Origin: Lachnospiraceae bacterium
GTDB taxonomy: Bacteria; Bacillota; Clostridia; Lachnospirales; Lachnospiraceae
Assembly (NCBI GenBank): GCA_017542245.1
Contig: JAFXXN010000006.1
Coordinates: forward strand, 1 to 38,826
Length of the DNA stretch: 38,826 nucleotides
Reading direction: 5' to 3'
Shown in pieces: positions 3,723-24,169 of this stretch (position 1 is its first letter; the number at the start of each line of letters is the position of its first letter). The translations under genes were made by a program, and so were the position numbers. Below the pieces are notes generated by a model, which made no database searches, was not told where the DNA came from, and saw nothing but the letters and a program-made list of their open reading frames with translations.

Positions 3723-6700
3723 TTATTTTTCCATCGACTTTATTCTTGCATAAACACTTTGTAATTCAGGCCCGGCATTTCCTCCGCTCATGGCCATTGC
3801 TATATTCGCTTTCTTTCTGGCTTCAGTGAAGTCTCCTATGTCGCAGTATGCGCCCGCTAAAGAGGTATATAAAGCCGGTGAACCAATTGATTTTCCATAA
3901 ATGGAAATATATTTTTCCGCAGTTTCGATTGCCTTTTCCGGTTGCTCTAACTTGCGAAGGATTGACGTATACCTTGAAAGAATGCTTCGAATTACCTGTC
4001 TGTCATTGCTTCTTTCAAAAATAGTTTCAAACAGTTTTTTTGAATAAATGTAATCGGAACTGTCCTTCATTTCCTGTGCTAGACGAATCAATTCAGAATC
4101 ATCTGTATCATCAAAGTTCAGCTTATTAATCCGCATCTCATTTAATTTATATAACTCTTCTTTTCGTACGGTCGTATAATGCGAATCAACCCATCTTCCG
4201 CCAATCAGGTAATAAGTTTCTCCATCTAATGTATAAGATTCGCGCTTACTCTTTGTCGTTTTGCTAGTTTCGTTTTTTTCTGTCTCTGGAATGCTATCTT
4301 TAAAAGGCATCGATGACTGAATATTATTTTCCACAGTTGACGCAGTTACAGAATCATCTCCAGAGAAATACCGAACAATCTCCCTTTGAACACTTATAGG
4401 ATATTTTAAAATCTTATATGAATAACCTTTCGCACTTACTGTATCTACATCTTTTATACCTTTTTGCGCTCCGAGTTCCGTTTGAATATTAACAAACTCA
4501 CCTTTAATGTTTCGTTCTTCAACATACCCATGTTTTAGTAAAAACCTCCAAATAACGGCTGCAGATGTTTTTTTAACGTTTGACTGCTCCGTAATTCGAT
4601 TTAACTCATCCCGAATCTCAACAATTGAAAGCATATCCTGATAGGTAAACTGCGCTGCTTCCTCTCTCGTCATTTGAAATTCATCTTTTCGTTTGTTATT
4701 ACTAATTTTCGTTTTTACTAATGGCTCAGCTTCTAATTCTTTCATTGGCTCAGGATCTATTTCGTCTGTCTTTATGCCCTTAAAATCCCGAATCTCTGAA
4801 AGAAAAGCTTCCCCATACTTAGAAAATTGGCTTTCTCCTACACCGCTAATCTGAAGCATTTCCCATCTCGTAGTCGGCTGAACTTCTGCCATCCTTTCAA
4901 GTGCTTTATCTGAAAATACATAAGATGCCGGAATATGTTCTATAGATGCAAGACAAGTGCGTATGATTTTGAGCTTTTCTAATAGAAATCTTGCCTGCTC
5001 AACCCTGTTAACCTCAGGATTTTTAGGGTTATTATTGATAACAATCTCCTGTATTGACGGGCTCTTTATAACAATCGATTGCGGTTTTTGATTCGAACTT
5101 ATTTCTTGTTTTTCTCCCACCACATCTACATATTTCATTCCTCTGGTAAATGCAATCGGATAAACAAAATCTTTCTCTACTCCTGAATCAAATGCAACCG
5201 TAAAGTCTTTCACTGTACCATTTGAATTCAGACCCACTTCAATAATCTGACCGGTACCATAAGCAATTTGAATAATCCTCTCCCCACATTTAGGCTCTCT
5301 GACAAAAGTATTTCCAGCTAGTGAATTAGCCTTCGGTTCAGAACAAACTGCATATGGTTTTGAGGGCGATACTGCTTTGGGTTTTCCTCCCTGAAGTATA
5401 GATTTTATCTTGTTTTTTTGAGACTCGTCCTTTGTACTTTTTGTATTTCGTATAGCATTAGGATTCTTTAGTTCCTCTATAAATACAGATTTTTCCGATG
5501 TAAATGTAAATATATTCAAACGGTCCTTAGCTCTTGTCATGCCGACAAAAAATAAGCGACGTTCTTCTTCTCCTTCTTTTTCTTCGCTTTTAGATTTGGG
5601 TTCTGTAATTAGAGAATCCTTCTGCGGAAATACTCCATCGCAGACATCCATTAAATAAACCTCGTCATATTCAAGCCCCTTTGAAGAATGAATTGTAGAA
5701 AGAACAAACTTTGCACTATAATTGGGCTGCATGTTTTTTAATAAGCCGTACAGATATCCCATTCTCTTTTCAAAGCTTTGTAATGTTTTTTCACGATACG
5801 CAAGATTCGTCAGAATAAAAATCTTGTTCTGATCCATCCCGTTTCGCTCCATATATTCGCCATAACCCATATAATTTACAATCCGATAGATTGCTTTGTC
5901 CGGAGTCTCACGGAACATATTTATAAAATGTGTTCTGGTAGAATTACACTTTCCAAGTACCATTCCGGAAACATTGGCAAATCTAGCAGCTTCAAGCACC
6001 GGAGTATTCTTGCTTTTACTTATAAGACACATATTTTCCGCCTGATTCTTTCGAAGAAATGTCTGAATCTTATAATAAATCTTCATAAAGAGTTCCGTGT
6101 TATATGGGTCCTCTGCAAAACGCATGATATTAATCACATCCTGCACAACACGATGTGTAAAAAAAGTCATTTCAAGGCCCTTGATTCGATATGGAATTCG
6201 GTTCCTGTCCAGTAAATCTACGAGTGGCAGACAACTCTCATTTAAACGATATAATACTGCTGTTTCCTGTCTGCAATCCTGAGCAACCTTTAAAAGATAA
6301 TTATACTGGTTGTTCCTTGACTTTAATTCAATATATCGGATATCACTTCCTTCTGAACGAACCGCCTGCATTGTCTTTTTATGACGATAAATATTTCGCT
6401 GAATAAAACGGTCCGCTAAATCAACGATTTTTGCATTCGAACGATAATTGTGACTCATTACAAGCACTTTTGCTTCAGAATGTGTTTTTTCAAAATCAAG
6501 AAGTGCCTCCGGATACGCTGCTCGGAATCCATAAATACTTTGATCTTCATCCCCGACCATAAAAAGATTTCCGTTTACACCCGCAAGCAAAGCAATAATC
6601 TTATGCTGAATTTTCGAAGTATCCTGTGCTTCATCTACACAAATATACTTAAATTGGTTCCTGTAAAAATCCAATAAATCCGCATCGCCACGAAGCATTT

Positions 6701-7310
6701 CATAAGCATAAACCATCTGATCATCATAATCCATCAGTCGATTTGCTCTTAAATACTGATTATATTGGTCGACCACCTCTAAAAGCGGAATTTCTTCTCG
6801 CTCACCAATTTCTTGAATTTCATCATCCGTAAGCATCATATTTTTGCAATATGTAATCCAAGTCTTCACGACACGTACATCACTCTCTGTCGGATACTCC
6901 GGTAAGAGTTCCTCAAGAATATTGCTTACTATCTTATTTATCTCTTTTTCATCCGTCAAAAGCTCGAACGGCTCTTTTCCTATTTTTCTGCCATAGGCCT
7001 GAATTATCTTTGCACAAATTCCATTGATTGTTCTAAACTCTACTTCTGCTGCTAAATCATCTCCAAAAATAGACGCAAATCGTTGTCCCATATCTTTTGT
7101 TGCGGCAATTGTATAGGTTAATACAAGAATATTCTCCGCAGGAATATTCTTACAAAGAATCATATAACCGGTCCGGGTAACAAGTACTGTTGTTTTACCG
7201 CTTCCGGGAACAGCAAGAAGCAGAATCGGTCCTTCGACCGATTCCACTGCTTGTAACTGTTGTTCATTTAATTGACGCCCATAATGGAAAATAAACTCAG
7301 ATGGTTCCAT
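3723..7310 (-). CDS. UvrD/PcrA-type SF1 DNA helicase with HRDC and C-terminal TPR
   Basis: This 1195-residue 3'-5' DNA helicase is much longer than PcrA/UvrD (about 720). Helicase motifs run in order: Walker A (VPGSGKTT, about 34-41), motif II (VDEAQDTS, about 224), GDEDQSIYGFRAA (about 253), HSSKGLEYDEV (about 548) and VGMTRAKDR (about 587). They cover the first 620 residues. An HRDC-like domain follows at about 780-845 (with ISGVGESQFSKYG), and TPR-like helices lie at about 1080-1190. The middle contains basic, low-complexity linkers. It starts 7 nt after the upstream gene, whose end supplies the AGGAAA site. It may be a repair helicase or part of a defence cassette; the operon context fits either. 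Confidence 0.9.
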   Translation of the reverse strand: MEPSEFIFHYGRQLNEQQLQAVESVEGPILLLAVPGSGKTTVLVTRTGYMILCKNIPAENILVLTYTIAATKDMGQRFASIFGDDLAAEVEFRTINGICAKIIQAYGRKIGKEPFELLTDEKEINKIVSNILEELLPEYPTESDVRVVKTWITYCKNMMLTDDEIQEIGEREEIPLLEVVDQYNQYLRANRLMDYDDQMVYAYEMLRGDADLLDFYRNQFKYICVDEAQDTSKIQHKIIALLAGVNGNLFMVGDEDQSIYGFRAAYPEALLDFEKTHSEAKVLVMSHNYRSNAKIVDLADRFIQRNIYRHKKTMQAVRSEGSDIRYIELKSRNNQYNYLLKVAQDCRQETAVLYRLNESCLPLVDLLDRNRIPYRIKGLEMTFFTHRVVQDVINIMRFAEDPYNTELFMKIYYKIQTFLRKNQAENMCLISKSKNTPVLEAARFANVSGMVLGKCNSTRTHFINMFRETPDKAIYRIVNYMGYGEYMERNGMDQNKIFILTNLAYREKTLQSFEKRMGYLYGLLKNMQPNYSAKFVLSTIHSSKGLEYDEVYLMDVCDGVFPQKDSLITEPKSKSEEKEGEEERRLFFVGMTRAKDRLNIFTFTSEKSVFIEELKNPNAIRNTKSTKDESQKNKIKSILQGGKPKAVSPSKPYAVCSEPKANSLAGNTFVREPKCGERIIQIAYGTGQIIEVGLNSNGTVKDFTVAFDSGVEKDFVYPIAFTRGMKYVDVVGEKQEISSNQKPQSIVIKSPSIQEIVINNNPKNPEVNRVEQARFLLEKLKIIRTCLASIEHIPASYVFSDKALERMAEVQPTTRWEMLQISGVGESQFSKYGEAFLSEIRDFKGIKTDEIDPEPMKELEAEPLVKTKISNNKRKDEFQMTREEAAQFTYQDMLSIVEIRDELNRITEQSNVKKTSAAVIWRFLLKHGYVEERNIKGEFVNIQTELGAQKGIKDVDTVSAKGYSYKILKYPISVQREIVRYFSGDDSVTASTVENNIQSSMPFKDSIPETEKNETSKTTKSKRESYTLDGETYYLIGGRWVDSHYTTVRKEELYKLNEMRINKLNFDDTDDSELIRLAQEMKDSSDYIYSKKLFETIFERSNDRQVIRSILSRYTSILRKLEQPEKAIETAEKYISIYGKSIGSPALYTSLAGAYCDIGDFTEARKKANIAMAMSGGNAGPELQSVYARIKSMEK

Positions 7311-10112: not shown

Positions 10113-10640
10113 CTATCCTATACTTTTTAACAATTCTTCAGCTCTTTTCTTATCGAAAACCCATTCCTTTGGTATCTCATCAACTGTACCGGCTGCTATC
10201 GATTTGCTGGTCCACTCTTTATATTCTCTTAAAACTGTATCACCATATCCTGCTCTGGATTTTTTCATTTCTTCAGCGATTTCTTTTGGAGTAGCCAGAT
10301 ACATTCTAGGTAATTCATCACTCTTTACATCTTTAAATTGAACAAGACAAAAGATAGTTTTTTCCCCATGAGCCTTTAGCCAATTATCAATGGCCGCATG
10401 GTAATCCTTATCTTTCATAAAGCCTTGTGTAAGGCCCCAACTACCATCCTGGCTTCCCTTTACTGAAACCTTAAGCATATAATCACCCTGCGATATCAAC
10501 AAGTCATACTCCGGTTGATTGGCACCATATTGGACCGAAACATTAATCCCAAATCTAGCAAATTGAGCTGCTGCAAAGGCCTCGGCAGAAACCCCGATGT
10601 ACCATGAACCTACTTCTCTTTGTTCAGCTGCCTTTGCCAT
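10113..10640 (-). CDS. PD-(D/E)XK-like restriction-fold protein
   Basis: The 175-residue protein looks like a small endonuclease-fold domain. GSWYIGVSAEAFAAAQ (E20) gives the first helix, PEYDLL supplies D46, and YMLKVSVKGS gives the third strand with K61. In canonical enzymes position 59 would be D, E or Q; here it is serine, so activity may be weak or lost. The C-terminal half is basic and helical. A GAGGAGGG site lies inside the end of the McrC fragment, and the stop of that fragment is only three bases before this ATG. It may be the last gene of the defence island. A DNA-binding, non-cleaving role is possible. Confidence 0.6.
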   Translation of the reverse strand: MAKAAEQREVGSWYIGVSAEAFAAAQFARFGINVSVQYGANQPEYDLLISQGDYMLKVSVKGSQDGSWGLTQGFMKDKDYHAAIDNWLKAHGEKTIFCLVQFKDVKSDELPRMYLATPKEIAEEMKKSRAGYGDTVLREYKEWTSKSIAAGTVDEIPKEWVFDKKRAEELLKSIG

Positions 10641-10938: not shown

Positions 10939-12210
10939 TTACAATTTTGATAAAGACTCCATAAGACAATTTGCTATTCCCTTTGCCATTAGAGGCGGTA
11001 CAGCATTACCAACTTGAACAAACTGCGCAGTTCTAGGGCCTTCAAAATAAAAGTTATCTGGAAAAGACTGTATTCTTGCAGCTTCTCTAACCGTAATTGA
11101 TCGATGTTGCTCAATAGAAGGATGTATAAAATAGTGACCATCTTTAGATAAATGCGCTAATATGGTATGACAATAATTCATATCGCCTTCAACCACTTTA
11201 AATCTATCTACAAATGAATTCCTATTACGATGTGTCTTTAAACTCTCTGGCAAATCGTCATACTTTAATCTTTCATGTTGATTGTTAAACCATAGATCAA
11301 TGGCTCTTTTGTAGATTTCTATATCTTGATGGGTATGCGGTCTTGCCATATGACATGTTAATACATCTTCTTTCTCGCGAATATGTTCCTTTCTTACATA
11401 CGGTTTAATACTTCTCATATCATATGTACTATAGTTATTTGATACTTTTCCTGGTAGTAATGCTGGTAAATCAAATAATAAATCCTGTACAATATCTATT
11501 TTCTTAATTATTTGAAACTCTGGATAGGTTAATTCCAGTTCTTTTCTCCATCCTACAATAATTATTCTCTTCCTACTCTGTAAAACCCCGAAGTCTGAAG
11601 CATTTAGTTCTCTATAGTCCAGTTCATATCCAATTCTCTTAATATACATCTGTAGGTTTTTAAATGCCTGTCCACCACGAGCTGTTTTAATTCCAGAAAC
11701 ATTTTCAAAAACAAACATTTTAGGTTTATATTTTCTTAAAAACTGCACATATAATTTATAAAGCTCATTTCTCGGATCTTGCTCCATCGGAATTATCATG
11801 TGACTACTCTGAGCTCTTCCGACTAGTGAATATGCTTGACACGGAGGCCCCCCTATTATTACATCAACATTATCAATGCCTCTCTGGGACATTATGCTAT
11901 CAATTCGATCATATATTTCTTTCATCGAGGATTCAGACATCTCTCTATTAATGACCGAATCTACTTCAATTTTGGGAACAGAACGTAGAAATGCTTCTCG
12001 ACTAATAATTCCCTTTTCATAATCATAATATATGTCAAGCTGATTCTTTTCCTTTAAGTAATGATAAGCACCTCGTGTTTCTAAAGTTTCCGAAGCATGC
12101 TTATTCATTTCCACATGTGCCACCGGTAAAAAACCGCACTGATAAAAGCCTTCTGAAAGGCCGCCTGCGCCTGCAAATAAATCAATATAAGTCAATTTTC
12201 TTGTTTTCAT
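10939..12210 (-). CDS. drmMII: C5 cytosine DNA methyltransferase (DISARM DrmMII-like)
   Basis: This 423-residue enzyme transfers a methyl group from S-adenosylmethionine to cytosine C5. Motif I (DLFAGAGGLSEGF, 10-22), motif IV with the catalytic cysteine (GGPPCQAYSL, PPC at about 119-121), motif VI (FENVSG, about 166-171), motif VIII (QSRKRIIIVG, about 211) and motif X (QVGNAVPP, near 400) are all intact. The target-recognition region lies at about 240-370. It is 24 nt after drmB. In class 2 DISARM this enzyme marks host DNA as self. The sequence it methylates cannot be read here. A solitary restriction-modification methylase is the alternative, but the drmA/drmB context argues against it. 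Confidence 0.92.
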   Translation of the reverse strand: MKTRKLTYIDLFAGAGGLSEGFYQCGFLPVAHVEMNKHASETLETRGAYHYLKEKNQLDIYYDYEKGIISREAFLRSVPKIEVDSVINREMSESSMKEIYDRIDSIMSQRGIDNVDVIIGGPPCQAYSLVGRAQSSHMIIPMEQDPRNELYKLYVQFLRKYKPKMFVFENVSGIKTARGGQAFKNLQMYIKRIGYELDYRELNASDFGVLQSRKRIIIVGWRKELELTYPEFQIIKKIDIVQDLLFDLPALLPGKVSNNYSTYDMRSIKPYVRKEHIREKEDVLTCHMARPHTHQDIEIYKRAIDLWFNNQHERLKYDDLPESLKTHRNRNSFVDRFKVVEGDMNYCHTILAHLSKDGHYFIHPSIEQHRSITVREAARIQSFPDNFYFEGPRTAQFVQVGNAVPPLMAKGIANCLMESLSKL

Positions 12211-12234
12211 ATAAATAACGCCTTATTTTCTTAT

Positions 12235-14091
12235 TTATATAAGATCTCTAATTTCACTAAAGAATCCAATATTAGGCTCATCAATTGTCCCAACCACAAC
12301 GCCTCTATCTAATAACCTGTTTCCTAAGTCAGACTCACAGCACGTTTCTGGTAATAGCGCACAATTATGACACGCAGCAAGATTACAGGAATCACTTCCC
12401 TGCCCAAGTGACTGTATACATATCGGATCAGAAGTACACCAAAGAGCATTTTTAAGAGCTGATATGACAGTATCCTCTATTCTGCCTTTTTCACCTTGTC
12501 TAACCAAACCACCTAAAGACCCTTCTGAATCACCTGATGCTGTATAAATCAAAACTCCACACATGTGGAAATCATTAGAATCTTTCTCACAATAAATCCT
12601 TTCTCGAATAGATGAACTACCATACCCACATTCAAAACTTAATTGATTTATTATTAGATGAGAAAAAGTATGTATCAATACAAATTCAGGGCGAAGTTCT
12701 CCAGTCAACCCGCTACCAAAGAAAGAAGCTTTATAAGCATTTTCCATTCTTTTAATTCTATTAATTACACTTTTATTTTTTGCCCAATTTGAGAGGTTTA
12801 ATTCATTGAACTCGAAGAAAATGCCTTCCCCATATGTTTCTACTGCTGGAATCCATTTCCCATTTCCAAGTCGTAAATCTTCGATGCTCTCCTTGCGCGG
12901 TTTATTACTTGGCTTAAGTCTAGAAAACCCAACAAATGCTCGAGTCTCCTTCAATTTAGGAACTAAAGAAATACTCTTAAAGAATTTTGAAATTACTGGG
13001 TCGTAATCACGAATCGGTATATTAATAGAATGAAAATACTGACTATCATTTCCACTGGATTTTATCAACACTTCATATTCCGAAAACCTATATTTGTCTT
13101 CTGAAGTCTCTTCCGTTACTTCCGGCAACCGTTCTTCCTCTGTATTCTTTTTCAAAAAAGCGGCATATAGTTTTTCAAAATTCACATTATTTTGGGCTGC
13201 TAAGAATTCAATTAATGATTTATTCAATTCACCATTTATACGAGAATTGTTTAATGCTTCGTAGTTATTCTCGACAATCTTTATTATTTTCTTATCAGAA
13301 ATATCCCCTAAAGTTGGAATATATAATGAACTTTCTATCCTAGGAAACCAAACATTTGTTGCTCCTCGAAGTACTACTCTTACCTCCTCAAAACCACAAC
13401 TACATCCCTTTTCAAGATCCTCTTTAATACCTAACCAAGGCCTACTACCCTTACATTTATACTCTATTCTCGCCAAACCATTTTTTTGAGTTGCACCTGC
13501 CATTGATTTTTTTGCACCACAAGTACATTCAAAATATACGCCACTCAAGCCAGAAGATGCGCCACCGGTACTTCGCCTTATCCTGCATCCTTTGGCTGGA
13601 TCATAACTATGACCGCTATCCTTATGCACCCATTCAGCCACTGGAAAATCATCAATATGTCCGTTAGGGCAAATAACAACAAATCTTTCCGGAATCATTT
13701 TCCTTCTAAATTTCTTTTTATTATCACATTTTCGACCAGTTTTCCATTGATAAGCATCACACTCCGGCTGAGTCTCATAATAAGTAGTTTTTCGCATACT
13801 ACCACAAAAGGGACAGTAATACCATGTAGGAAATCTTATCGCAGGAATTGTTAAATTAAAATTCTCGTGATCAACTTTAGAATCTCTAAAATCAGGAGGC
13901 CATCTGAGTTCTTTAACACCCAGATGATCAGCAAATCTTCGATCTTCAATTACAAAATCTTCAAGAGTGTTATATCTCCACATATCCAATCCGGCAATCA
14001 TCAATGTTTCATCATATGGAAATGGAACCATTGATCCTACTCCCCACGGACTAATTAAGGAATTTCGCCGCATAGGTTTCATCATTTTCAT
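12235..14091 (-). CDS. drmB: DISARM DrmB, DUF1998-domain protein
   Basis: The 618-residue protein is the DUF1998 partner of the DrmA helicase. Its N-terminus (RRNSLISPWGVGSMVPFPYDE) is characteristic. A first cysteine cluster (CPFCG near 93, further Cys to about 125) suggests zinc binding. The DUF1998 region lies at about 470-600 with HTFSHLIINQLSFECGYG and a final cluster CHNCALLPETCCE. The start is given by GGAGG within the last codons of drmA, 4 nt before this gene. DrmA and DrmB form the core complex of DISARM and are needed to restrict incoming DNA. No truncation is seen. Confidence 0.9.
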   Translation of the reverse strand: MKMMKPMRRNSLISPWGVGSMVPFPYDETLMIAGLDMWRYNTLEDFVIEDRRFADHLGVKELRWPPDFRDSKVDHENFNLTIPAIRFPTWYYCPFCGSMRKTTYYETQPECDAYQWKTGRKCDNKKKFRRKMIPERFVVICPNGHIDDFPVAEWVHKDSGHSYDPAKGCRIRRSTGGASSGLSGVYFECTCGAKKSMAGATQKNGLARIEYKCKGSRPWLGIKEDLEKGCSCGFEEVRVVLRGATNVWFPRIESSLYIPTLGDISDKKIIKIVENNYEALNNSRINGELNKSLIEFLAAQNNVNFEKLYAAFLKKNTEEERLPEVTEETSEDKYRFSEYEVLIKSSGNDSQYFHSINIPIRDYDPVISKFFKSISLVPKLKETRAFVGFSRLKPSNKPRKESIEDLRLGNGKWIPAVETYGEGIFFEFNELNLSNWAKNKSVINRIKRMENAYKASFFGSGLTGELRPEFVLIHTFSHLIINQLSFECGYGSSSIRERIYCEKDSNDFHMCGVLIYTASGDSEGSLGGLVRQGEKGRIEDTVISALKNALWCTSDPICIQSLGQGSDSCNLAACHNCALLPETCCESDLGNRLLDRGVVVGTIDEPNIGFFSEIRDLI

Positions 14092-14095
14092 ATTG

Positions 14096-17000
14096 TCATT
14101 CCTCCATTTCCATATACTTGTTATTTAAAACGCGTGCTTCACAAGAAGCATCCACGTTTCGCATCGAAGTAGGAGTCTTAAATCCTCGATCCAACCAAAG
14201 CACATTGGGTTTATTTCCTGAACCATATATTAGAGGAACTGCATCTCCTAATGATTCATCATAATTCTTCTGGGGTATCCATCTTTGGGGATTCCAGTCC
14301 TCCCAGCATTGAAGAATATACTCTATCTGTTTTTGTGTGTCCTGCAATTCTCTAAAATCAATGCTATTAACACGACTTTCTATAACTGTTCTCGCATGAT
14401 CAATAACATCCTGAGCCGGATATTTGGCCGGTTCTTCATTATATGCATCTCCTTGTTCCAATCTTATTAGTCCAATAAGAATTGCATGTAAAGCTCGTTC
14501 ACGAACCGGTGCAGAAAAAGGCGTAACACTGGTCGGTTCTACATTGCAATATAACCTCGAATGATAGTACCTGAAAGATTCATAATGAGATTTATCTCTC
14601 GGTTTATTTGGCCTATAAAGTACGAATACAACACCTGGCGAATTTTCAGAATCTCTACCTACTCGGCTGGTTGCCTGAATGTATTCAGATGTGGTTTTGG
14701 GCTGCCCTGCAACAGTCATCAGGCCCAATCTTTGTACATCTAGTCCTACTGAAATCATATTTGTGGCTAAACAAATATCTATTGGGTGCTCTTTCACAAC
14801 ACCAGTTTCATCCTTAGTCGGTGGATATGCGATATTTAGATTTGACAGGCTAGCAGTCACTTTATCTCCCGGAATTCGGCTTGTTAGTTCTTCATCTCTC
14901 CAAATATATCTGCGATGTTCTCTATATTCATCTTTATTTTCAAAACGCTTTTCTGTATAACGGCGTTTATACATTACATCAAGATGCTGACTAATATCTG
15001 CTTTAATCCATGTTTGAGCTTGCCCCAATTCTCTAATGCTGTTGTAATAACCCATATTTGTCCAATAAGGATCCCGTAATTTTTCATCCGACACATCCAT
15101 AGCTTTAGCCCCGTAAAGAAGTGATGCATATAATCTAATTGCTGTGGTGGCATCTGATGGAGAACCAGATGCCAATATTCCCACATATTTTCTGCCTTTC
15201 CTAGTAACATCTTCTTCAGCAAAGAAAGAATTGCCAGCATTTAGTCCAGCCGGCGGAAATTGAAACACTTTTTCAGTTGGGCAGCCATATAAAGCATGGC
15301 ATTGTTCCTTCGCTCTACTTATTGTTGCTGTGGATGCTATTATTTTAGGAGATATTATTCTGCTTTCAATCTCTTGAGTGCAAAGATCATTAATCAACGT
15401 TTCATAATGGCCAACCATGGATCCTAATGGACCAGAAATCAAATGTAACTCATCCTGAATTATTAAATCCGGAGCTGTTTTTTTTATTCCGTCATAATAT
15501 CCAAAAATCTTTTGTGCCTCCGGTTTAAACGGCAAAATAGCAAATTTATCTACAGTACCAATAATCAGTGTGGGTGGTTTTTCATATATGTCTTCATCCA
15601 CAATATAAAGCGGCAACGAGTGTGCACCTGAAAAAGCACAAGATTGCATAGTATTAGAACACTGAAAAACAAACTTTTTGCTCTTGTGTGGACCTGGAAT
15701 AACTCTATATCCTGGTAATCGTCTCTGTTTGCCGATTTCCACAATGCCCATTTGTGCCCCACACCAAGGGCATTTCAACATGATGAACGGATTACTGTTA
15801 GTCTTATTCAAATATAATTCGTTATATTTTGTAACAGCATCTTTCTTCGAGTTTGGCGAAGTTTCTCCACCTACCCATAAGCCTATACTTATCTCTTCGG
15901 CACCCAGTTTATCTTCATTATTTCTTCTAATTATCTCACATGCACAGATCATTGCAGCTGCACGTTCATATTGCTGAGCTGTTAATAATCTTAAAGTATA
16001 TCTCATTAAAATACTTGTTCCAAAGCTATCAGAATTTAATAGTTTGCGAAGAAAAATGGTATATGCGGAAAGGCCTAAATATGCCTCTGTTTTTCCGCCA
16101 CCAGTTGGGAACCAAATCAAATCCACTATTTCTCGTTCCTCACCATCTGGATGTCGCATTGATTCTAAATTCATTAATATAAATGCGAGCTGGAAAGGTC
16201 TCCATTTACCATATACCTTTTTTTCTGAGTTATACCATGTAGACTGATCATCTATTTCAGGGAGTCTTGATACCAAGCTTTCCAATTTAATCTCATTTTC
16301 ACCATCATCTATCCATTTTTGTAATGGCAATCCATAATGAAGCTGTTGAAGTAGCATTGCCTGATTCATCCATTGAAATGCCTGTCTTACTTCATCATCA
16401 CTGTCAAGAAGTTTGATTCCATTTCTCATCCGACTCAAACAACTTTTACAATTTCTAATATGTCTTTCAGCCGTTCCTGCTAACGCTACCTCTATGGACT
16501 CTGCTTCCACCTCAAGTTTTTTTATCCATTCTTCATATCGGTCGCAGAGTGTTCCAAGTTGCTGTACTACATCCTTGTGTTTATCTGGATCACTCATTTC
16601 AAGCATGCTTAGAGAAACACCCGGTGTAGTGCTGGGAATTATAGGATTAATTTCATATGACGGAAAAATAGAACTATGAATCTCTCTTACTTCTCCATTT
16701 TCTTCTTTCCAATCAGCCGCACAGCCATGTCCCACGGCGTAGTTTTTTACGTTACGATATAGTAAGGCGTTAGATAAATAGTCCTCATCTTTATTAATCT
16801 TCAAATTATCAGGCAAAGTTACAAAACCAACACTAGAAAACAAACCAATCTTTACTTGAAAAAAACTATTTTCTTCTTCTGAACCGGATTCTTCTGTCCT
16901 AGTATTTTCAAGTGTGAACGTATAGATTGAGAAATCCTCTTTTTCATATCGGAATGTAACATCTACACACAAACCGGTATCATTTACTTCTATTTTCTGA

Positions 17001-17533
17001 ATCGCATCTCCTTTATTAGGTAAATGAATAGCGTTTTGTGTATTCCATTCTATTTTATTTCTATAATACTTTTGAGTTTCCTTTCCCGTTTCAGTATCTT
17101 TTTCAGTCTTTTTCTTATACTTCCCTGCGTTTACAGAAAGATTTATAATATCATCATTTTTTATTGCTACCGTAAGACTTAAAGCAGATTGTTTATATGC
17201 ATTTGATCTATCAATTAGTTCTTCCGCTTCCTCAAAGTATTCATAACTGTTATAGTTCTTATCATTTTCCGAAGCCGAACCGGAATACGCTTCCTCATCG
17301 TCATTTGTCTCATTCTCGGGTATTACATCATCTTGATTATCCAGAACAGTTTCTGAGTTTACTTTTGTTTTCTTGGGAAATAGAATACCAGCAATGTATC
17401 GAGTTGTAGGCGGATCAGTGATCAATATCTCCTCTCCATTTTCCTGAATAAGTCCAGGCCAATCAATTGGATCAGGTCCCATCAATTCTCTCTCAACATA
17501 TTCAACCAATAAGTCCCTTCTTTCCTTATGCAT
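14096..17533 (-). CDS. drmA: DISARM DrmA, large SF2-type helicase
   Basis: This 1145-residue helicase carries the DrmA-type Walker A motif (FPTGGGKTEAYLGL, about 470-483). It has a DELH box (IIQDELHLISGPLG, about 690-703), a SAT-like motif (IASTATISRA) and a C-terminal helicase motif (SRVGRDSENSPG, about 965). The first 450 residues form a long N-terminal region with an acidic linker near 65-110. A zinc-ribbon-like pair (CPWCGAQ) lies at about 595. AAGGAGAAAAATTA precedes the ATG, and the gene overlaps the NERD-helicase end by 8 nt. In DISARM it binds and unwinds DNA with DrmB and is autoinhibited until triggered. The identification is firm on motifs plus neighbours. Confidence 0.93.
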   Translation of the reverse strand: MHKERRDLLVEYVERELMGPDPIDWPGLIQENGEEILITDPPTTRYIAGILFPKKTKVNSETVLDNQDDVIPENETNDDEEAYSGSASENDKNYNSYEYFEEAEELIDRSNAYKQSALSLTVAIKNDDIINLSVNAGKYKKKTEKDTETGKETQKYYRNKIEWNTQNAIHLPNKGDAIQKIEVNDTGLCVDVTFRYEKEDFSIYTFTLENTRTEESGSEEENSFFQVKIGLFSSVGFVTLPDNLKINKDEDYLSNALLYRNVKNYAVGHGCAADWKEENGEVREIHSSIFPSYEINPIIPSTTPGVSLSMLEMSDPDKHKDVVQQLGTLCDRYEEWIKKLEVEAESIEVALAGTAERHIRNCKSCLSRMRNGIKLLDSDDEVRQAFQWMNQAMLLQQLHYGLPLQKWIDDGENEIKLESLVSRLPEIDDQSTWYNSEKKVYGKWRPFQLAFILMNLESMRHPDGEEREIVDLIWFPTGGGKTEAYLGLSAYTIFLRKLLNSDSFGTSILMRYTLRLLTAQQYERAAAMICACEIIRRNNEDKLGAEEISIGLWVGGETSPNSKKDAVTKYNELYLNKTNSNPFIMLKCPWCGAQMGIVEIGKQRRLPGYRVIPGPHKSKKFVFQCSNTMQSCAFSGAHSLPLYIVDEDIYEKPPTLIIGTVDKFAILPFKPEAQKIFGYYDGIKKTAPDLIIQDELHLISGPLGSMVGHYETLINDLCTQEIESRIISPKIIASTATISRAKEQCHALYGCPTEKVFQFPPAGLNAGNSFFAEEDVTRKGRKYVGILASGSPSDATTAIRLYASLLYGAKAMDVSDEKLRDPYWTNMGYYNSIRELGQAQTWIKADISQHLDVMYKRRYTEKRFENKDEYREHRRYIWRDEELTSRIPGDKVTASLSNLNIAYPPTKDETGVVKEHPIDICLATNMISVGLDVQRLGLMTVAGQPKTTSEYIQATSRVGRDSENSPGVVFVLYRPNKPRDKSHYESFRYYHSRLYCNVEPTSVTPFSAPVRERALHAILIGLIRLEQGDAYNEEPAKYPAQDVIDHARTVIESRVNSIDFRELQDTQKQIEYILQCWEDWNPQRWIPQKNYDESLGDAVPLIYGSGNKPNVLWLDRGFKTPTSMRNVDASCEARVLNNKYMEMEE

Positions 17534-19274
17534 TAATTTTTCTCCTTATAAACAGCTGATTGTATTCTTCACTTGCGGACTTTGTTTCTAAAACAAATAA
17601 TCCCGAACGTGCTCTGCTCAACGCTACATACATTAATTGTTCTGGACTAAATCCATCAATATCGGTAAGAATTACAACCTTACTATCAAGTCCTTTAAAA
17701 GATTGAATTGTTGAAAAAGTAATGTGATTTCCGCTTTTAAATGTAAAATCACGAATTTTAGTAGTGTCAATTCTTGAAACAATTGATTTTTCTCTAGTAT
17801 ATGGAGAAAGAATAATAATATCTCCATTTTCAATGTGTTCTTTATCAGTCAAATTAAAAAGCAATTCTTCAAGTTTTACTAATTCCTCATCCTCATTCTT
17901 ATAAGTCGTATAAGACACTGGGGGACCTACTATTTTTGACCATAAGTCAGAAGGTGCTTTAAATCCAGTAATGATCTCTATTGCAAAACAAATTTGTCTC
18001 GTATTTCTACAATTCTCCACTAACTTACATCTAGCAAATGCTGTTCTATCTTCAATAAGGTCAAACATGTTCTGCCCAGACATTCCACCGGAATAAATAG
18101 CTTGATTTGAGAAATCGCCAAACATTTTCCAGCATCCTCTTTCAAAACCTTTAATTAGAAGTAAATCCAGAACATCAAGATACTTTTCATTAATCAGATC
18201 CTGCGCTTCATCTATAATTATCTCATCATATTCTGGTTCTTTCTCCAAAAGATACTCTAATGCCATATCTGGGAGTGTATTTTTATAGAATTCATTCTTT
18301 GCCTCTTGTGAGGAAGGAATCGTTATAGTTTCATTCGCTTTTTTTACTATATCAAGCAAAAGTGAATGAAAAGTTCCAACAAAACTAGGAATTCCCATAT
18401 CGTTTTCCGCTTTAAAAGCTTCCTGAAACCATTTCCCCAGACTTGAATTATAACAAATAAACGCTACTTTTTTGCCCTTTAAAACCTCATTACGAGCCTG
18501 TTTCATCGCTAAAAGTGTTTTACCAGTTCCCGCAGGTCCATAGACAATAACTCGTCTGTTCTCTTCTATCTGATCAAGGCATTGATACTGTTTATTAGTC
18601 AAAGATATAAGCTCCTGATCCGCATAATCTATTTTTGCGCGTAATGCTACCGTTTTATCAAAGTCTTTACGTAAAATAGACAAAAGATAATTCACATCAT
18701 TAACATTTGGGATTTTGTTTTTTGGCATCGGTCCATATGTTCTTTCCCATGCTGCCCTTGCGCCGCTGGATAAACGTACTATATAGTCTCTAACCTTTTT
18801 TCCATCTTTACAATCAAATACTTGCCAAGGTTCCTCTTCCGCACCAACCGTTTCATAATCAATATCCGGAAACATAGCTCCTATTCCATATATCATTTTT
18901 TCAACATTTTTATGATCAATATCCGTCCTAGAAGGAACTATTTTTTCCATAATACTGTGAATAGCATCCCAAGCTTGTTCAAATGGTCCACGAGATTTGC
19001 TATCCGTTTCACCGAATCGATTTGTAAAATACCATATTCCATCTTTTCTACTTACTCGTCCACCCTTTACTTCGAGCGCAAAAATACCATATTTAGGTGC
19101 TAACACAAGAAAATCAACCTCACCATGAATAAGTGAAACATGCTGTGCTATTCCCAAAGAATGCAGTACAATCCAATCATCTGTATTGGGAGCTTCTTCA
19201 AACCATTTAAATATCTTTTTTTCTGCGTCACTTTTCACATTCGGTGAAATCACCGCTGGAATCATCCTTGCCAT
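17526..19274 (-). CDS. NERD nuclease domain fused to SF1 helicase
   Basis: The 582-residue protein joins a nuclease-related (NERD) domain (about 14-130) to a UvrD-like helicase. The nuclease site D54-x13-E68-x-K70 (GEVDFLVLAP, then FALEVKGG) fits a PD-(D/E)XK enzyme. Helicase motifs are Walker A (GPAGTGKT, about 245-252), DEAQD (about 352), STIQSFKGLD (about 522) and VALSRARSGLF (about 548). AAGGAGATGAACT precedes the ATG. It overlaps drmE by 13 nt and drmA by 8 nt, so all are translated together. No phospholipase-D nuclease (DrmC) occurs in the locus, so this protein may replace it; that is inference. All catalytic residues appear intact. Confidence 0.9.
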   Translation of the reverse strand: MARMIPAVISPNVKSDAEKKIFKWFEEAPNTDDWIVLHSLGIAQHVSLIHGEVDFLVLAPKYGIFALEVKGGRVSRKDGIWYFTNRFGETDSKSRGPFEQAWDAIHSIMEKIVPSRTDIDHKNVEKMIYGIGAMFPDIDYETVGAEEEPWQVFDCKDGKKVRDYIVRLSSGARAAWERTYGPMPKNKIPNVNDVNYLLSILRKDFDKTVALRAKIDYADQELISLTNKQYQCLDQIEENRRVIVYGPAGTGKTLLAMKQARNEVLKGKKVAFICYNSSLGKWFQEAFKAENDMGIPSFVGTFHSLLLDIVKKANETITIPSSQEAKNEFYKNTLPDMALEYLLEKEPEYDEIIIDEAQDLINEKYLDVLDLLLIKGFERGCWKMFGDFSNQAIYSGGMSGQNMFDLIEDRTAFARCKLVENCRNTRQICFAIEIITGFKAPSDLWSKIVGPPVSYTTYKNEDEELVKLEELLFNLTDKEHIENGDIIILSPYTREKSIVSRIDTTKIRDFTFKSGNHITFSTIQSFKGLDSKVVILTDIDGFSPEQLMYVALSRARSGLFVLETKSASEEYNQLFIRRKINA

Positions 19275-21859
19275 AGTTCATCTCCTTTTTCTTCAGACAA
19301 TATTTTGTTTGTATCACTATAATTCACAAATAACCACTCTTGGCCTATATCCATTATCTTTAATATTTTTGTAGGTCCAACACCTTCAATTTCCAGCTCT
19401 ATCGGATCCCAAATATTATATGGATCCGTAATATGTTTTTCCTGAATGATTTGTCCTATACTATCTGTCAATCTATCCGATAAAATCCTTCCAGCCTTAA
19501 TATGCGCTCTTTTTATCGTTTCGCCTGCGTCATATATTTCATCTAGCTTTTCCAACAAAACCGAATCTTGCGTAACATGCGCGATTGCTATTAAATCCTC
19601 TTTTCTTTTTGGAATTATTATTTCATCGTTATATATCCAATTGCGAATAGTTTGTATATTTCTATCACATCCCTCTTCTTTTAGTCTTTTTGCAATATCG
19701 TCAATAGAATTAAACGAACTTTCAATTTTCAATGCCTCTTGCCAAATCTCCGAAATTGCCCTTAAGTGAATTTTGTTATTAGATTCCAAAATCTTATCGG
19801 CAACTTCCTTTATCAAATCCTTCGAAGCTTCTCGAATAACAACAAAATCTCCAATTGATAATTCCTCAACCTCTTTAACATCTATTCTATTAGTTATTTG
19901 CTGGATCATTTTTGTACAAACAATTATTTTATGTCCTTTTCGAAAAAGAGAAAAAGAACCGCCAACATAACTTACCGGTTTTGCTTCTGTTATTTCTTCG
20001 CCATCTTTATTACCGTTTGAACAGTACTGTCTGTATTTATTCTCAAGCAGAACATATTCCAAATCATCCTGCTCCGTTATTATTCCATTTTCAGTCTTTG
20101 TTAATTCCTCTTTAGTCTCTGTTTTTATAATAATATCCGTATTCTTTTTATCTTTAGAAAAACTGTTCTGAACAATTGTCTTATTATTGGAATTATTTAG
20201 TTTTTGCTTCCATGATTTTGTGTGTGCACAACACCATCTTTTTTCAATTCCATAGTTTAATAAATATACTTTATTAACTTCATACCCATATATTATTTTT
20301 CTTATATATTCTGCTCGAAACCATCCAACAATAATTACAATATCAAAATCTGTTCTACGATTTTTTAAATAATCTCTTATGGTATAAACATGTAATTTAT
20401 AATTATATGCATTCTCCGGCAATACACCCAAAATACTTTTTCTAATATCTCCGGAATTCTCATTATTTCCGCATATGACACAGATTTTCTTCCCCTCGCA
20501 TTCCAATAATAATTCTAAGATTTTGTTCCTTTTGGGGAAAACAAAAGCATCAGTATTAATAGTTTTTAACAAATCTATTATTTCTTTATAATCTTCATAT
20601 GTGTTTTCCGTTATAAACGGCTTTTCTTTTTCCAATATTTTTTCACACGAGCTTAAGTCTTGATCATATCTATTTCTTTCAGCCTTATTTATTTCTCTAA
20701 TATTCCTTAACAAGAAAAAAGCATAGGAAAACAGTTTTGTATAAATAGCGTTTATACCCATTGATTCATTTTCCAGCTTACTTCTATATTTGTTTAGTAA
20801 CGAGAAGATTGTATCAATTTGTTCAAATTTGACATCCTCATATACTATTTTTTCACCCATGCAGGAATCTATTCTTTTTCCAAATTTTGTAGCTTTAGAC
20901 TCACATAAGTTGCTTGTTATACTATCGGCATCCCATCGCCAAATATTAAATCCTCTATCTTTCAAAACGTCTAAATCAAACGAATTAATAGTATCCGTAA
21001 CACAAACAATCGGCACCTTATACGTTTTTAATTCATCAAGTTCGACCAATTGGCTTTCTACATCACATTCCGCCAAATTGATAATTACAGATTGACATTT
21101 TTCACCCCGTCTAATGGCTTCATTAACATAAGCTATTTGACTTGAAAAAACCAAGGAAGGTGTTCCAGATTCTTTGTCCTTTATAAGCTCTATTTTCCCA
21201 GAATAATCAGTCTGTCCAACAAGAAAATAATCAAACATACTTTCATTATTTATCTTAATAGTCTTAGCTTGATCTTTGCTTTTTGTAATAAATGCAACAT
21301 AAAATAAAGAATCTGTCATATATGTCTTCATATCTGACAATTTACTCAAATAACTATTTTGCAGCGAAAGAAGTCTTTTTATCTTGGACTTTTCTTCATA
21401 ATATTTCTTTTCACTAGATTTTTTTATTTTTTTTGTTTTTTGAAAATAAGGCGCAAATTCTAATTTCATAACATCCGTACAACCAGATGTTTTTACATAT
21501 ATAGCCTTTTCACCATTAAAAGCGCGCTCTGATTCAATTCTATCAAATTCAACCACTGCATTTCCAAGCTTAAGCATTTGTCCATGCACAAAATCTTCCG
21601 GATTATATTTTTTTTCAATCTTACCTAAATAAATATTATAAATAAGCTTGGAAAGCATAAATAAAAACGGAAGCTGATCCCCATCTGGGAACACAAAAAG
21701 GTTGTATTTCCCTTGGTTTTTAATCATTTTTTCAAGCATAAAAACACTCGCCTTGATTATTTGAGGAATCGATTCTGTTACCCCATCAATCTCAACACTT
21801 ATATTATCCAGGCATTTCTCGGATTCTATTATTTGTTTTATATACTCGCTCCACTCCAT
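19262..21859 (-). CDS. drmE: DISARM DrmE-like protein
   Basis: This 865-residue protein is AT-rich in coding sequence. I call it DrmE because of its size, its N-terminal pattern (FPDGDQLPFLFMLSKLIYN near 58, then LKLGNAVVEF near 96) and its place next to drmA/drmB. No catalytic motif is obvious. Residues about 440-600 look like an alpha/beta fold with parallel strands (KICVICG, DIVIIVGWFR), possibly a degenerate helicase-like domain. Residues about 720-760 form a probable helix-turn-helix (CDRNIQTIRNWIYNDEIIIPK). A GAGG site precedes the ATG. Its biochemical role in DISARM is not known to me. Identity is moderately sure without a profile search. Confidence 0.72.
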   Translation of the reverse strand: MEWSEYIKQIIESEKCLDNISVEIDGVTESIPQIIKASVFMLEKMIKNQGKYNLFVFPDGDQLPFLFMLSKLIYNIYLGKIEKKYNPEDFVHGQMLKLGNAVVEFDRIESERAFNGEKAIYVKTSGCTDVMKLEFAPYFQKTKKIKKSSEKKYYEEKSKIKRLLSLQNSYLSKLSDMKTYMTDSLFYVAFITKSKDQAKTIKINNESMFDYFLVGQTDYSGKIELIKDKESGTPSLVFSSQIAYVNEAIRRGEKCQSVIINLAECDVESQLVELDELKTYKVPIVCVTDTINSFDLDVLKDRGFNIWRWDADSITSNLCESKATKFGKRIDSCMGEKIVYEDVKFEQIDTIFSLLNKYRSKLENESMGINAIYTKLFSYAFFLLRNIREINKAERNRYDQDLSSCEKILEKEKPFITENTYEDYKEIIDLLKTINTDAFVFPKRNKILELLLECEGKKICVICGNNENSGDIRKSILGVLPENAYNYKLHVYTIRDYLKNRRTDFDIVIIVGWFRAEYIRKIIYGYEVNKVYLLNYGIEKRWCCAHTKSWKQKLNNSNNKTIVQNSFSKDKKNTDIIIKTETKEELTKTENGIITEQDDLEYVLLENKYRQYCSNGNKDGEEITEAKPVSYVGGSFSLFRKGHKIIVCTKMIQQITNRIDVKEVEELSIGDFVVIREASKDLIKEVADKILESNNKIHLRAISEIWQEALKIESSFNSIDDIAKRLKEEGCDRNIQTIRNWIYNDEIIIPKRKEDLIAIAHVTQDSVLLEKLDEIYDAGETIKRAHIKAGRILSDRLTDSIGQIIQEKHITDPYNIWDPIELEIEGVGPTKILKIMDIGQEWLFVNYSDTNKILSEEKGDELWQG

Positions 21860-21861
21860 GC

Positions 21862-23898
21862 TTAATCCTCAATATATCCCTTTTCTTTAGCAACTGCATA
21901 TATTATTTCAGCCTGTTTAGCCTGTTTATAAGAAGGTTTTTTTCCTCTTCTCAACAATGTTCCAACACTAAAAGATATACTTCTTTGCCATGGTTCCAGA
22001 TTATTGGTGTCTTTGGCCCACTTTGAAATGCCAAGCCAAACGTCACCAGATACACTTGCAACTCTATCTATAATCTGCTTTTCTTCCTCTGTTGCTTCAT
22101 TAAAAGATGATTGACCAACTTTAGAAGTGGAAACTACTTCCTTTGCTCCCTCAAGAAGAAGTTCCTTTTTTAAATCATCTGATAATTCTACATTTTTCAA
22201 TAACAACTGTTCCCAACAAACCTTTTTCTTGCAATACTCTCCTACATTCGCATTATTGGGTGGGTTAATTATATGATTTTTAACGATTTGAGAAATCCTA
22301 ATAATCTCTCTTTCTAGTGCCGATGACAATGCTTGATTTTTCCATATTCTATCTAAATCTATCCTTTGTGCAGACAGATGAGATATTAATGCAATAGTAT
22401 ACGTTACTATATTTGCCCTATATCCTCCATATTGTTGCTGCGCAACAAGTTTCTCCGTTCTTCTGAATAATATACATTTTGCAACTAGTAATTGATAATA
22501 GTGTTCATCCGGCAAATAATTACCGCGTTCTTTAATTATTATCATAAAACGCTTATAGTTCTTCTGCGCTCCTTCACTAACAAAAAACGGTAACTGATTC
22601 CATGTGTTTTCATATTTTGCCATGTCGGTTTTTGTAAACAACGGATGTGTCTCCTTAAATGCTTTTCTTTTAGCTGGAGTCCCTTCTCTATTTAGCATAT
22701 CGGCATATTGACCACGTGCTCTCTCAAAAAACCAATTAATTGGTTTTTGCCCATTAATCGCTGGTGCCCATATTACTCTTGATAAATCTTCTAGTTTCCT
22801 GTTAAATGGATCGTTAGAAGAAAAATCTGCCATTTGAATTTTATTCTGAGTATTAGCACATTCGGATATCTTATGTACAATTTCATCCATCTTATCCTCA
22901 TTATGAACAACAGATATCTTCATCTGAACAAACACAGTTTTTAAATCAACCTGTGAATCTTTTTCCTTCGTAATATTGTAAATAGAAGCCGTGGTTTGGC
23001 CACCATTTACAATCTGCATATCCCGTATACTTGATATATACTTTTGTCCATTTCCATCATCATCTAGTTCAATGCTTTCAGCCGTTACAGAAATACCATT
23101 ATTATATGCTAGAAACATTTGAGGCTCATTTCTTAGAGTATCTCGTATACCTTTATTTACAGCTCCCTTTACCTGCAAAAAAGATCTCACATTTTTTTCC
23201 AGTAGTCTGGCACCATGATCTGCATATATAGCAGACAAAATGTCACCTCTTATAATTGCAATATATGCATCATAAACGTCACTTTCATAATTAGCCAAAC
23301 AGGGAATTCTATATTCAAATACATCTTTAAAATTAATTTCGATAGTTTCTCTCATCTTTCCAGATGAGACACACCGATATAATCGGTCCATATCCCATAT
23401 TCCAAATGAAACATCAGCTTCTCCGATTTTTATATTATTAAATGGAATCGGTTTACAATTTCCGTTTGTAAGTGCTACTAAATTAACTTTCTTTATATTT
23501 GTTTTATTTTTACTAATTATTAATGCAAATTCATAAATGTCTTTATCCTTTTCAAATGATTTATACAAATCATTTGTTGCTTTTCGATATATTTGAATTG
23601 CTCTTTTTAATGCTGCATCTACATCTTGTTTTGCCACATTTTGAACTTCATTTTCCTGATAATACAAACTAACATAAATAGTCAGTTCACTAATATCCTC
23701 ATTTATAGCATATGCGTTAATTTGCAAACCATAGGCTCTATACGGACAAACAACAGAATTCTCAATTTCTCCAACTTCTTCAAGATAGTCCAACATGACA
23801 GACGTAAAAAAGTCTTCTCTATTCCAGCCAAAATTATCATTATCAGTTAAAATATTAATTTGTTCTGCAAAATCCCGAAAGAAATCGTTAAAACTCAT
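21862..23898 (-). CDS. AIPR-family (abortive infection phage resistance) protein
   Basis: The protein has about 678 residues. The AIPR core (about 225-510) is recognised by LAYNNGISVTAE (about 260) followed by MQIVNGGQTTASIYN (about 293-307) and a conserved NPPN segment later. The N-terminal 200 residues are mixed alpha/beta and may be a nuclease-like or binding domain. I use the ATG at 23898, which has GAGGG about 8 nt upstream; a GTG five codons earlier lacks a site. It ends 2 nt before drmE, so it heads the DISARM-like operon. The family was named from a phage abortive infection system; its chemistry is not clear. It is not a standard DISARM gene. Confidence 0.85.
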   Translation of the reverse strand: MSFNDFFRDFAEQINILTDNDNFGWNREDFFTSVMLDYLEEVGEIENSVVCPYRAYGLQINAYAINEDISELTIYVSLYYQENEVQNVAKQDVDAALKRAIQIYRKATNDLYKSFEKDKDIYEFALIISKNKTNIKKVNLVALTNGNCKPIPFNNIKIGEADVSFGIWDMDRLYRCVSSGKMRETIEINFKDVFEYRIPCLANYESDVYDAYIAIIRGDILSAIYADHGARLLEKNVRSFLQVKGAVNKGIRDTLRNEPQMFLAYNNGISVTAESIELDDDGNGQKYISSIRDMQIVNGGQTTASIYNITKEKDSQVDLKTVFVQMKISVVHNEDKMDEIVHKISECANTQNKIQMADFSSNDPFNRKLEDLSRVIWAPAINGQKPINWFFERARGQYADMLNREGTPAKRKAFKETHPLFTKTDMAKYENTWNQLPFFVSEGAQKNYKRFMIIIKERGNYLPDEHYYQLLVAKCILFRRTEKLVAQQQYGGYRANIVTYTIALISHLSAQRIDLDRIWKNQALSSALEREIIRISQIVKNHIINPPNNANVGEYCKKKVCWEQLLLKNVELSDDLKKELLLEGAKEVVSTSKVGQSSFNEATEEEKQIIDRVASVSGDVWLGISKWAKDTNNLEPWQRSISFSVGTLLRRGKKPSYKQAKQAEIIYAVAKEKGYIED

Positions 23899-23950
23899 AT
23901 CATAAACCCTCACAAAGTCTACTTATTGATCTGTTTTTGTATCCCTTTAG

Positions 23951-24169
23951 TTATCGTTCAATATCCGGAATCACTTCCATAATATCGCCTATATCGCATT
24001 TCAATTCTTCGCAAATCTTAGTTAGTACAGGTAAAGCAACTGGCTGATTCTTAACCATTTTTGCCATTGTGCTACTACTCATCCCAGTAGCATCCTGTTG
24101 TACACAGTATTGCAAATTGGGAGTACCATAAATTGGCTTCGTTGTTTCAAATATCCGGTCCCAAAAATC
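23951..24169 (-). pseudogene. Truncated XRE/Cro-type HTH regulator
   Basis: An open frame of 72 residues with no start codon reads as a small Cro/C1-type repressor. It begins DFWDRIFETTK and ends with MSSSTMAKMVKNQPV and KICEELKCDIGDIMEVIP, the hallmark C-terminal part of this family. The frame opens directly after the TGA of the DUF4190-type gene, and the first internal ATG would remove the DNA-binding helices. The middle (PIYGTPNLQYCVQQDATG) is unlike intact members. The most likely reading is that the 5' end was lost when the AIPR/DISARM island joined here. It lies 52 nt before the AIPR gene. Confidence 0.7.

Follow-up and report, generated by a model that had tools for sequence, protein, structure and literature searches.

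The systems most closely related to the locus described here belong to DISARM (defence island system associated with restriction-modification). According to passages in PMC9252829, the PADLOC model for type II requires DrmA, DrmB, DrmC, DrmE, and DrmMII, and the model for type I forbids drmE. Passages in PMC9142583 report that Serratia DrmAB prefers unmodified DNA with a 5′ overhang; Bravo et al. there note that DrmC can be dispensed with and that annotated operons often lack it, so that the way in which DISARM destroys phage DNA has been a mystery. Passages in PMC12458937 describe TALON, in which a YprA homologue is combined with a NERD endonuclease, and Bell et al. note many uncharacterised DISARM-like classes there and mention NERD twice, in the TALON passage. 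Here we analyze a six-gene operon of a Lachnospiraceae bacterium that contains DISARM genes together with genes for an AIPR protein and a NERD-helicase. The window is the entire contig of 38,826 nt (JAFXXN010000006.1; C132 of genome G000), which is part of a draft metagenome-assembled genome (MAG) of 4.72 Mb. Based on sequence comparisons, we consider it somewhat more probable than not that the operon encodes a DISARM-type anti-phage restriction system of a distinct and widespread sub-kind, with the NERD-helicase as its nuclease.

The six genes are located on the minus strand from 23898 down to 10939 in the order AIPR, DrmE, NERD-helicase, DrmA, DrmB, and DrmMII, and the intergenic distances in the direction of transcription are 2, −13, −8, 4, and 24 nt. 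Two minus-strand terminator-like sites fall within drmA and drmB and none lies between genes; the frequency of such sites is at chance level. The order and the tight spacing, with gaps of at most 24 nt or overlaps, had been claimed in an earlier note on this DNA and agree with the coordinates of the open reading frames (ORFs). The same note had named DrmA, DrmB, and DrmMII, and these assignments were confirmed by NCBIfam and PADLOC models, as was that of DrmE. DrmA (14096..17533), a YprA-family helicase, reached 959.1 bits with NF038325, barely above the cut-off of 950. This margin is thin, because the nearest relatives (L021, L022, L023, L030, and the L107 record) do not reach the cut-off. 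The DrmA of PDB entry 7s9v matched the window protein with an E-value of 4.1e-133, and the window gene was the single DrmA gene found in the host genome. DrmB (12235..14091), the DrmA partner of the MZB/DUF1998 type (PF09369), is encoded by a separate gene 4 nt from drmA and scored 452 bits with NF038324 (cut-off 240). The C5-cytosine DNA methyltransferase DrmMII (10939..12210; PF00145) scored 561 bits with the PADLOC model PDLC02649 and 188 bits with TIGR00675 (cut-off 100.65).

The other three genes lie upstream of drmA. DrmE (19262..21859) contains an SF2-like region (helicase superfamily 2; residues ~20-580) and a DrmE_C region (PF24957). It scored 423 bits with NF038316, far above the cut-off of 80, and matched the PADLOC DrmE model weakly (31.7 bits). 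The NERD-helicase (17526..19274) is composed of a NERD domain (residues 16-125; PF08378, 42.5 bits, cut-off 22.1) and a helicase region, and residues 1-568 aligned end to end with the PADLOC model RTasNERD-Hel (165 bits, profile 1-516 of 519). AIPR (21862..23898) contains the AIPR core (PF10592, 328 bits, cut-off 25) and AIPR_N (PF22879, 125.5 bits). The ATG at 23898, which the earlier note had also chosen, is a better candidate for its start than the upstream GTG at 23913, because the former is preceded by a GTGAGGG stretch and is aligned with the start of its L021 relative. The AlphaFold2 model of AIPR had a pLDDT (predicted local distance difference test) of 86 and a pTM (predicted template modelling score) of 0.49. 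A fold search with it retrieved nothing significant (best E-value 0.21; FokI, Shedu, HindIII, and a ParB-N domain were only weakly suggested), and therefore no fold is claimed for AIPR. Profile searches of PDB sequences with AIPR or DrmE yielded chance-like matches only.

Judged from these matches, the window contains the DrmAB core of DISARM. The likeness to class 2 (PADLOC type II) consists of DrmA, DrmB, DrmE, and DrmMII in one operon. The differences are the lack of DrmC, which places the window outside type II, and two extra genes, AIPR preceding DrmE and the NERD-helicase separating DrmE from DrmA; in addition, DrmA is 38-39% identical to its counterparts in seven DrmE-type loci of related genomes. 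The window also differs from class 1 (PADLOC type I), which requires DrmD and DrmMI and no drmE, as it does contain drmE, and neither DrmD nor DrmMI was among the PADLOC matches listed for ten window proteins. The Serratia DISARM (PDB 7s9v) shares the DrmA-DrmB pair, with homologous DrmA, but has an adenine methyltransferase, DrmD, and DrmC, whereas the window has a C5-methyltransferase, DrmE, and the NERD-helicase. TALON shares with the window a YprA-family helicase and a NERD-type nuclease. However, the ARMADA-like YprA of TALON is fused at its C-terminus and accompanied by genes for a TPR-CSD protein (tetratricopeptide repeat, cold-shock domain) and a TATA-binding protein (TBP), whereas the window has a DISARM-type DrmA, a separate DrmB, and a NERD domain fused to a helicase. 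RTasNERD-Hel, associated in PADLOC with defence-associated reverse transcriptases (DRT), was matched over its full length, but the window protein is encoded within a DrmAB operon instead. AIPR is homologous to MzaE of the MZA system, yet its score with the NCBIfam model (416.5 bits) lies below the equivalog cut-off of 1050, and the other Mza genes were not matched in the window. No pairing of a NERD-helicase with DISARM was found in the literature searched, which consisted largely of papers outside subscription.

The recurrence of the arrangement was analyzed around DrmA. A scan of genome contigs with a DrmA alignment retrieved at least 558 confirmed relatives, and the best 80 of these, seven DrmE-bearing loci from related genomes, and the window formed a set of 88 loci. 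Two duplicates (L071 of L019, L029 of L024) and three loci in which DrmA was masked by a longer antisense ORF (L081, L084, L085) were removed, leaving 83. The set comprises the nearest relatives of the window DrmA, so the fractions are uninformative on DISARM at large. A NERD-helicase was found directly upstream of DrmA in 34 of the 83 loci, the window included; L086 was left out of the printed count of 35 because its NERD match lies 3.7 kb from DrmA. The direct upstream neighbour was DrmE in 27 loci, an SF1 (superfamily 1) helicase without NERD in 14, and a NERD fragment in one, and the remaining seven (L086 included) had another gene, none, or a contig edge. In 33 of the 34 cases, the NERD-helicase overlapped DrmA or stopped at most 20 nt before it (long overlaps reflect mechanically assigned ORF starts), and in 30 of 34 it was preceded by DrmE or its C-terminal part. 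The other 33 NERD loci carry 10 phylum labels (Bacillota, Mycoplasmatota, Ignavibacteriota, Bacteroidota, Myxococcota, Verrucomicrobiota, Pseudomonadota, Acidobacteriota, Actinomycetota, and Dormiibacterota), taken from the titles given by submitters, and many entries are MAGs. The recurrence in unrelated genomes that the earlier note had proposed to look for was thus found. AIPR was encoded nearby in 9 of 83 loci, and by gene content, the recurring unit is DrmE-NERD-DrmA-DrmB, to which AIPR is an optional addition.

Within the taxonomic neighbourhood of the host, the unit is rare. Of 299 family genomes, 5 had a DrmE match, and of 391 genomes of the class, 4 had one above the cut-off, the host's own genome included in both cases; the matches in G299 and G656 were below the cut-off. 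NERD was absent from between DrmE and DrmA in all seven other DrmE loci of related genomes, two of which have a NERD-helicase after DrmB. DrmE alone as a search seed gave no matches, because it is too divergent. The position directly after DrmB was occupied by a NERD-helicase in L015, L019, L058, L075, and L097, in the plasmid loci L157 and L158, and in the viral loci L163 and L164.

The closest relatives of the window DrmA, with 59-65% identity among the best 80 of at least 558, are L021, L022, L023, and L030, and together with the window they formed a strongly supported group in a quick DrmA tree, which was computed without a mixture model and gave long-branch warnings elsewhere. A Phascolarctobacterium MAG (L022) and an Acholeplasmataceae MAG (L030) have the order methyltransferase, AIPR, DrmE, NERD-helicase, DrmA, DrmB. 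In a Butyrivibrio MAG (L021), AIPR, DrmE, NERD-helicase, and DrmA extend to the contig end and no methyltransferase was matched ahead of them, and the Firmicutes UBA5509 locus (L023) is devoid of AIPR. A search of viral contigs with AIPR (38 loci, 25 of them mapped) added an IMG/VR record (L107/L160) with all six genes, the methyltransferase again being first; downstream of them are genes for an AAA_5 ATPase and a DUF2357/PDDEXK_7 protein and, at a greater distance, one for a serine recombinase. AIPR thus immediately precedes DrmE in the window, L021, L022, L030, and L107/L160. The six-gene set of the earlier note recurred in full in L022, L030, and L160, but the precise order given there, which ends with the methyltransferase, was seen in the window only. 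Among the viral AIPR loci, L108-L130 often have two genes (~670 and ~330 aa) ahead of AIPR and a C5-methyltransferase in the flank, and these loci are another recurring AIPR operon.

drmC was searched for in the host genome and beside the related loci. A six-frame search of the whole host genome for PLDc_2 gave six places on contigs C49, C90, C181, and C185 and none on the window contig, and a Pfam scan of 26 window stretches, a subset of its ORFs, also gave no PLDc_2 match. The absence of drmC stated in the earlier note therefore holds for the entire contig, and no drmC was found just outside the island, the case that the note had named as a refutation; the operon lies 10.9 and 14.9 kb from the contig ends, so a drmC may be present further off in the genome. 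For the other 33 NERD loci, ORFs of at least 120 aa were taken from both sides, no more than two upstream and three downstream of each (150), of which 148 were scanned; L040:17044-20070 and L023:17433-20591 were omitted for their size, and the latter carries a phospholipase D (PLD) match. PLDc_2 did not appear among the families with at least two members and is therefore present in at most 1 of the 148 ORFs; C5-methyltransferases account for 21 ORFs and Vsr endonucleases for 8. A PADLOC tally of these ORFs contained only methyltransferase models among the 25 rows listed and is uninformative on DrmC. A PLD protein of 269 aa ahead of the methyltransferase in L107/L160 was initially taken for DrmC and then interpreted as the truncated end of a PLD-helicase gene, because within the set it is related only to the PLD-helicase fusions of L023.

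The NERD-helicases of these loci appear to be intact. In the NERD domain, E18, E52, D54, E68, and K70 were identical in all 42 aligned rows (41 distinct), and the same was true for G246, G249, G251, K252, D355, E356, and R554 of the helicase region. The domain has the conserved acidic residues and the E-x-K motif of PD-(D/E)XK nucleases, and we take E52, D54, E68, and K70 to be catalytic. The pairwise distances of DrmA and NERD-helicase were correlated with r = 0.885 (34 loci), compared with 0.952 for DrmA and DrmB (32 loci); none of 2000 permutations reached either value, and shared ancestry is still contained in r.

A reciprocal approach from the NERD side made use of 72,556 plasmid records, of which 24 matched the NERD-helicase and 86 matched DrmA. 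Among the matches listed (26 DrmA records were unlisted), a DrmA match lay within about 3 kb in 10 of the 24, with NERD upstream in three and downstream in seven. The pairs were read by eye; one of the three upstream cases (D. psychrotolerans) depends on circularity of its record, and the ten include near copies, i.e. three of the Rhizobium leguminosarum type and two of R. rhizogenes. A DrmA-like match near the NERD-helicase of Burkholderia aenigmatica was left uncounted, as it is weak and on the opposite strand. Annotated examples are the R. opacus plasmid pROB02, with the order NERD-DrmA-DrmB, and, alongside it, the D. gobiensis plasmid P4, as well as R. rhizogenes pC6.5c and Azospirillum plasmids, with the order UvrD-DrmA-DrmB-NERD. 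A Priestia megaterium plasmid has DrmA-DrmB and no NERD gene in the stretch shown.

DrmE was modelled with AlphaFold2 (pLDDT 85, pTM 0.72). The model contains the two RecA-like domains of the SF2 fold, and Foldseek matched it to SF2 helicases. A Walker A lysine (GK[ST]) at the aligned site was found in none of the 32 rows with residues there, the alignment having 38 rows, six of them split and without that part; GK[ST]-like strings occur elsewhere in the DrmE of L025, L041, and L062. DrmE is thus predicted to be an SF2-like pseudo-helicase. In 16 loci (L038, L040, L042, L044, L045, L048-L052, L055, L057, L059-L061, L065), DrmE is apparently split into two genes of ~330 and ~510 aa, the second of which matches the C-terminal part.

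By analogy with Serratia DrmAB, the most likely function of the operon would be to restrict phage DNA, and the NERD-helicase would serve as the nuclease. We infer that the proteins would form a defence complex with a division of labour. DrmMII would mark host DNA as self by methylating a C5-cytosine site, and DrmA-DrmB would load onto unmodified phage DNA of 5′-overhang character and translocate. DrmE, with its SF2-like fold devoid of the ATP-binding lysine, could be a scaffold or a DNA-binding sensor on the DrmAB complex. Degradation of the DNA, the role that has been proposed for DrmC elsewhere, would fall to the NERD-helicase as a predicted ATP-driven nuclease, and AIPR might be an optional extra sensor or a back-up effector. 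A more specific version, in which DrmE-NERD-DrmA-DrmB forms a separate DISARM-type class across at least 10 phylum labels, DrmE recruits NERD as effector nuclease, and AIPR adds a third sensor layer, is a tentative proposal that we place somewhat short of an even chance.

Several observations weigh against this restriction model. PLDc_2 was also rare beside non-NERD loci (2 of 76 downstream ORFs); the scarcity of PLD genes beside both kinds of loci leaves a replacement of DrmC by NERD unproven, and the lack of drmC alone does not define a subtype. As Serratia DrmC is described as dispensable, a replacement nuclease is perhaps unnecessary. The DrmA loci L025, L052, L055, and L061 have no upstream NERD-helicase, and the DrmA tree requires eight changes for NERD (with L086 and L037 as carriers) and six for AIPR. 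Only one (L160) of 17 viral-contig DrmA loci has NERD between DrmE and DrmA, and a DrmA search of 50,697 phage records gave no match. NERD-helicases are not confined to DISARM: PADLOC includes one that is associated with reverse transcriptases, and 14 of the 24 NERD-matched plasmids had no DrmA match counted nearby. The Foldseek TM-scores (template modelling) of DrmE are low, the alignment that indicates its loss of Walker A has a low identity, and the host MAG, though 97% complete, has a contamination of 8.58%. The distinct DISARM subtype of the earlier note is supported by the recurrence and by the lack of drmC beside the operon, with the refinements that AIPR is optional, the order varies, and PLD genes are generally scarce in the sample.

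Some of these observations could also be explained by a class 2-like DISARM that works via DrmAB alone, with AIPR and the NERD-helicase as passengers, i.e. independent defence genes. DrmAB may need no dedicated nuclease, since DrmC is described as dispensable (passages in PMC9142583) and the non-NERD loci of the sample, too, seldom have a PLD gene beside them. In addition, AIPR is patchy, and NERD-helicases occur elsewhere. However, tight packing at one position across 10 phylum labels, correlated divergence, even with its component of shared ancestry, and invariant active sites are not expected of passengers, and the plasmid search that started from NERD also led to DrmA. We regard this explanation as unlikely for the operon; for AIPR alone it may hold. 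Still less probable is abortive infection, in which DrmAB and DrmE would sense phage DNA and NERD, AIPR, or both would kill the cell or halt its growth. The name of the AIPR family refers to abortive infection phage resistance, and passages in PMC12839542 and PMC10853773 propose NERD as a suicidal back-up effector in PglW and DndF, but the C5-methyltransferase in the operon suggests self/non-self marking, and ARMADA, a tested relative, acts directly and non-abortively (abstract of PMC12458937). That the operon is a TALON-like or DRT-related system combining a YprA-type helicase with a NERD nuclease, rather than DISARM, is highly improbable in spite of the TALON pairing and the RTasNERD-Hel match, because DrmA scores above the DISARM equivalog cut-off, DrmB has a gene of its own, the window proteins scanned gave no match to TBP, cold-shock proteins, or reverse transcriptases, and the TPR protein at 37488-38564 is distant from the operon.

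Further genes were noted around the operon and its relatives. Immediately upstream of AIPR, a 5′-truncated remnant of a Cro/C1-type helix-turn-helix protein of the HTH_26 family (23951..24130, minus strand; PF13443, 46.7 bits, profile 19-63 of 63) possibly once regulated the operon. Downstream of the methyltransferase gene, a protein of 175 aa (10113-10640, minus strand) has a weak PDDEXK_5 match below the cut-off. The short, putatively McrC-like remnant between the two (10829-10644) had no Pfam match. A UvrD/PcrA-type helicase of 1,195 aa with an HRDC domain (3723-7310, minus strand) is possibly an additional defence or repair gene, and an IS21-type IstB and a Mu-transposase-C protein at the low end of the contig (58-2200, minus strand) are a sign of mobility. 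The 14 loci with an SF1/UvrD-type helicase without NERD before drmA (L056, L063, L068, L072, L074, L076, L077, L082, L089, L091, L093, L095, L096, L098) are mostly actinobacterial and often have a protein of ~1,600 aa ahead.

Loci of this kind have probably been undercounted, because the PADLOC type II rule would miss the operon and DrmA was annotated merely as "helicase-related protein" on the five plasmid stretches checked. The DrmAB core of DISARM and the class 2 genes drmE and drmMII are known; what we consider new is a DISARM variant that carries a NERD-helicase. An SF2 pseudo-helicase fold, as predicted, offers a hypothesis for the role of DrmE. For the destruction step of DISARM, the intact-looking nuclease-helicase at one position in a broad DrmA group provides a concrete candidate effector that can be mutated.

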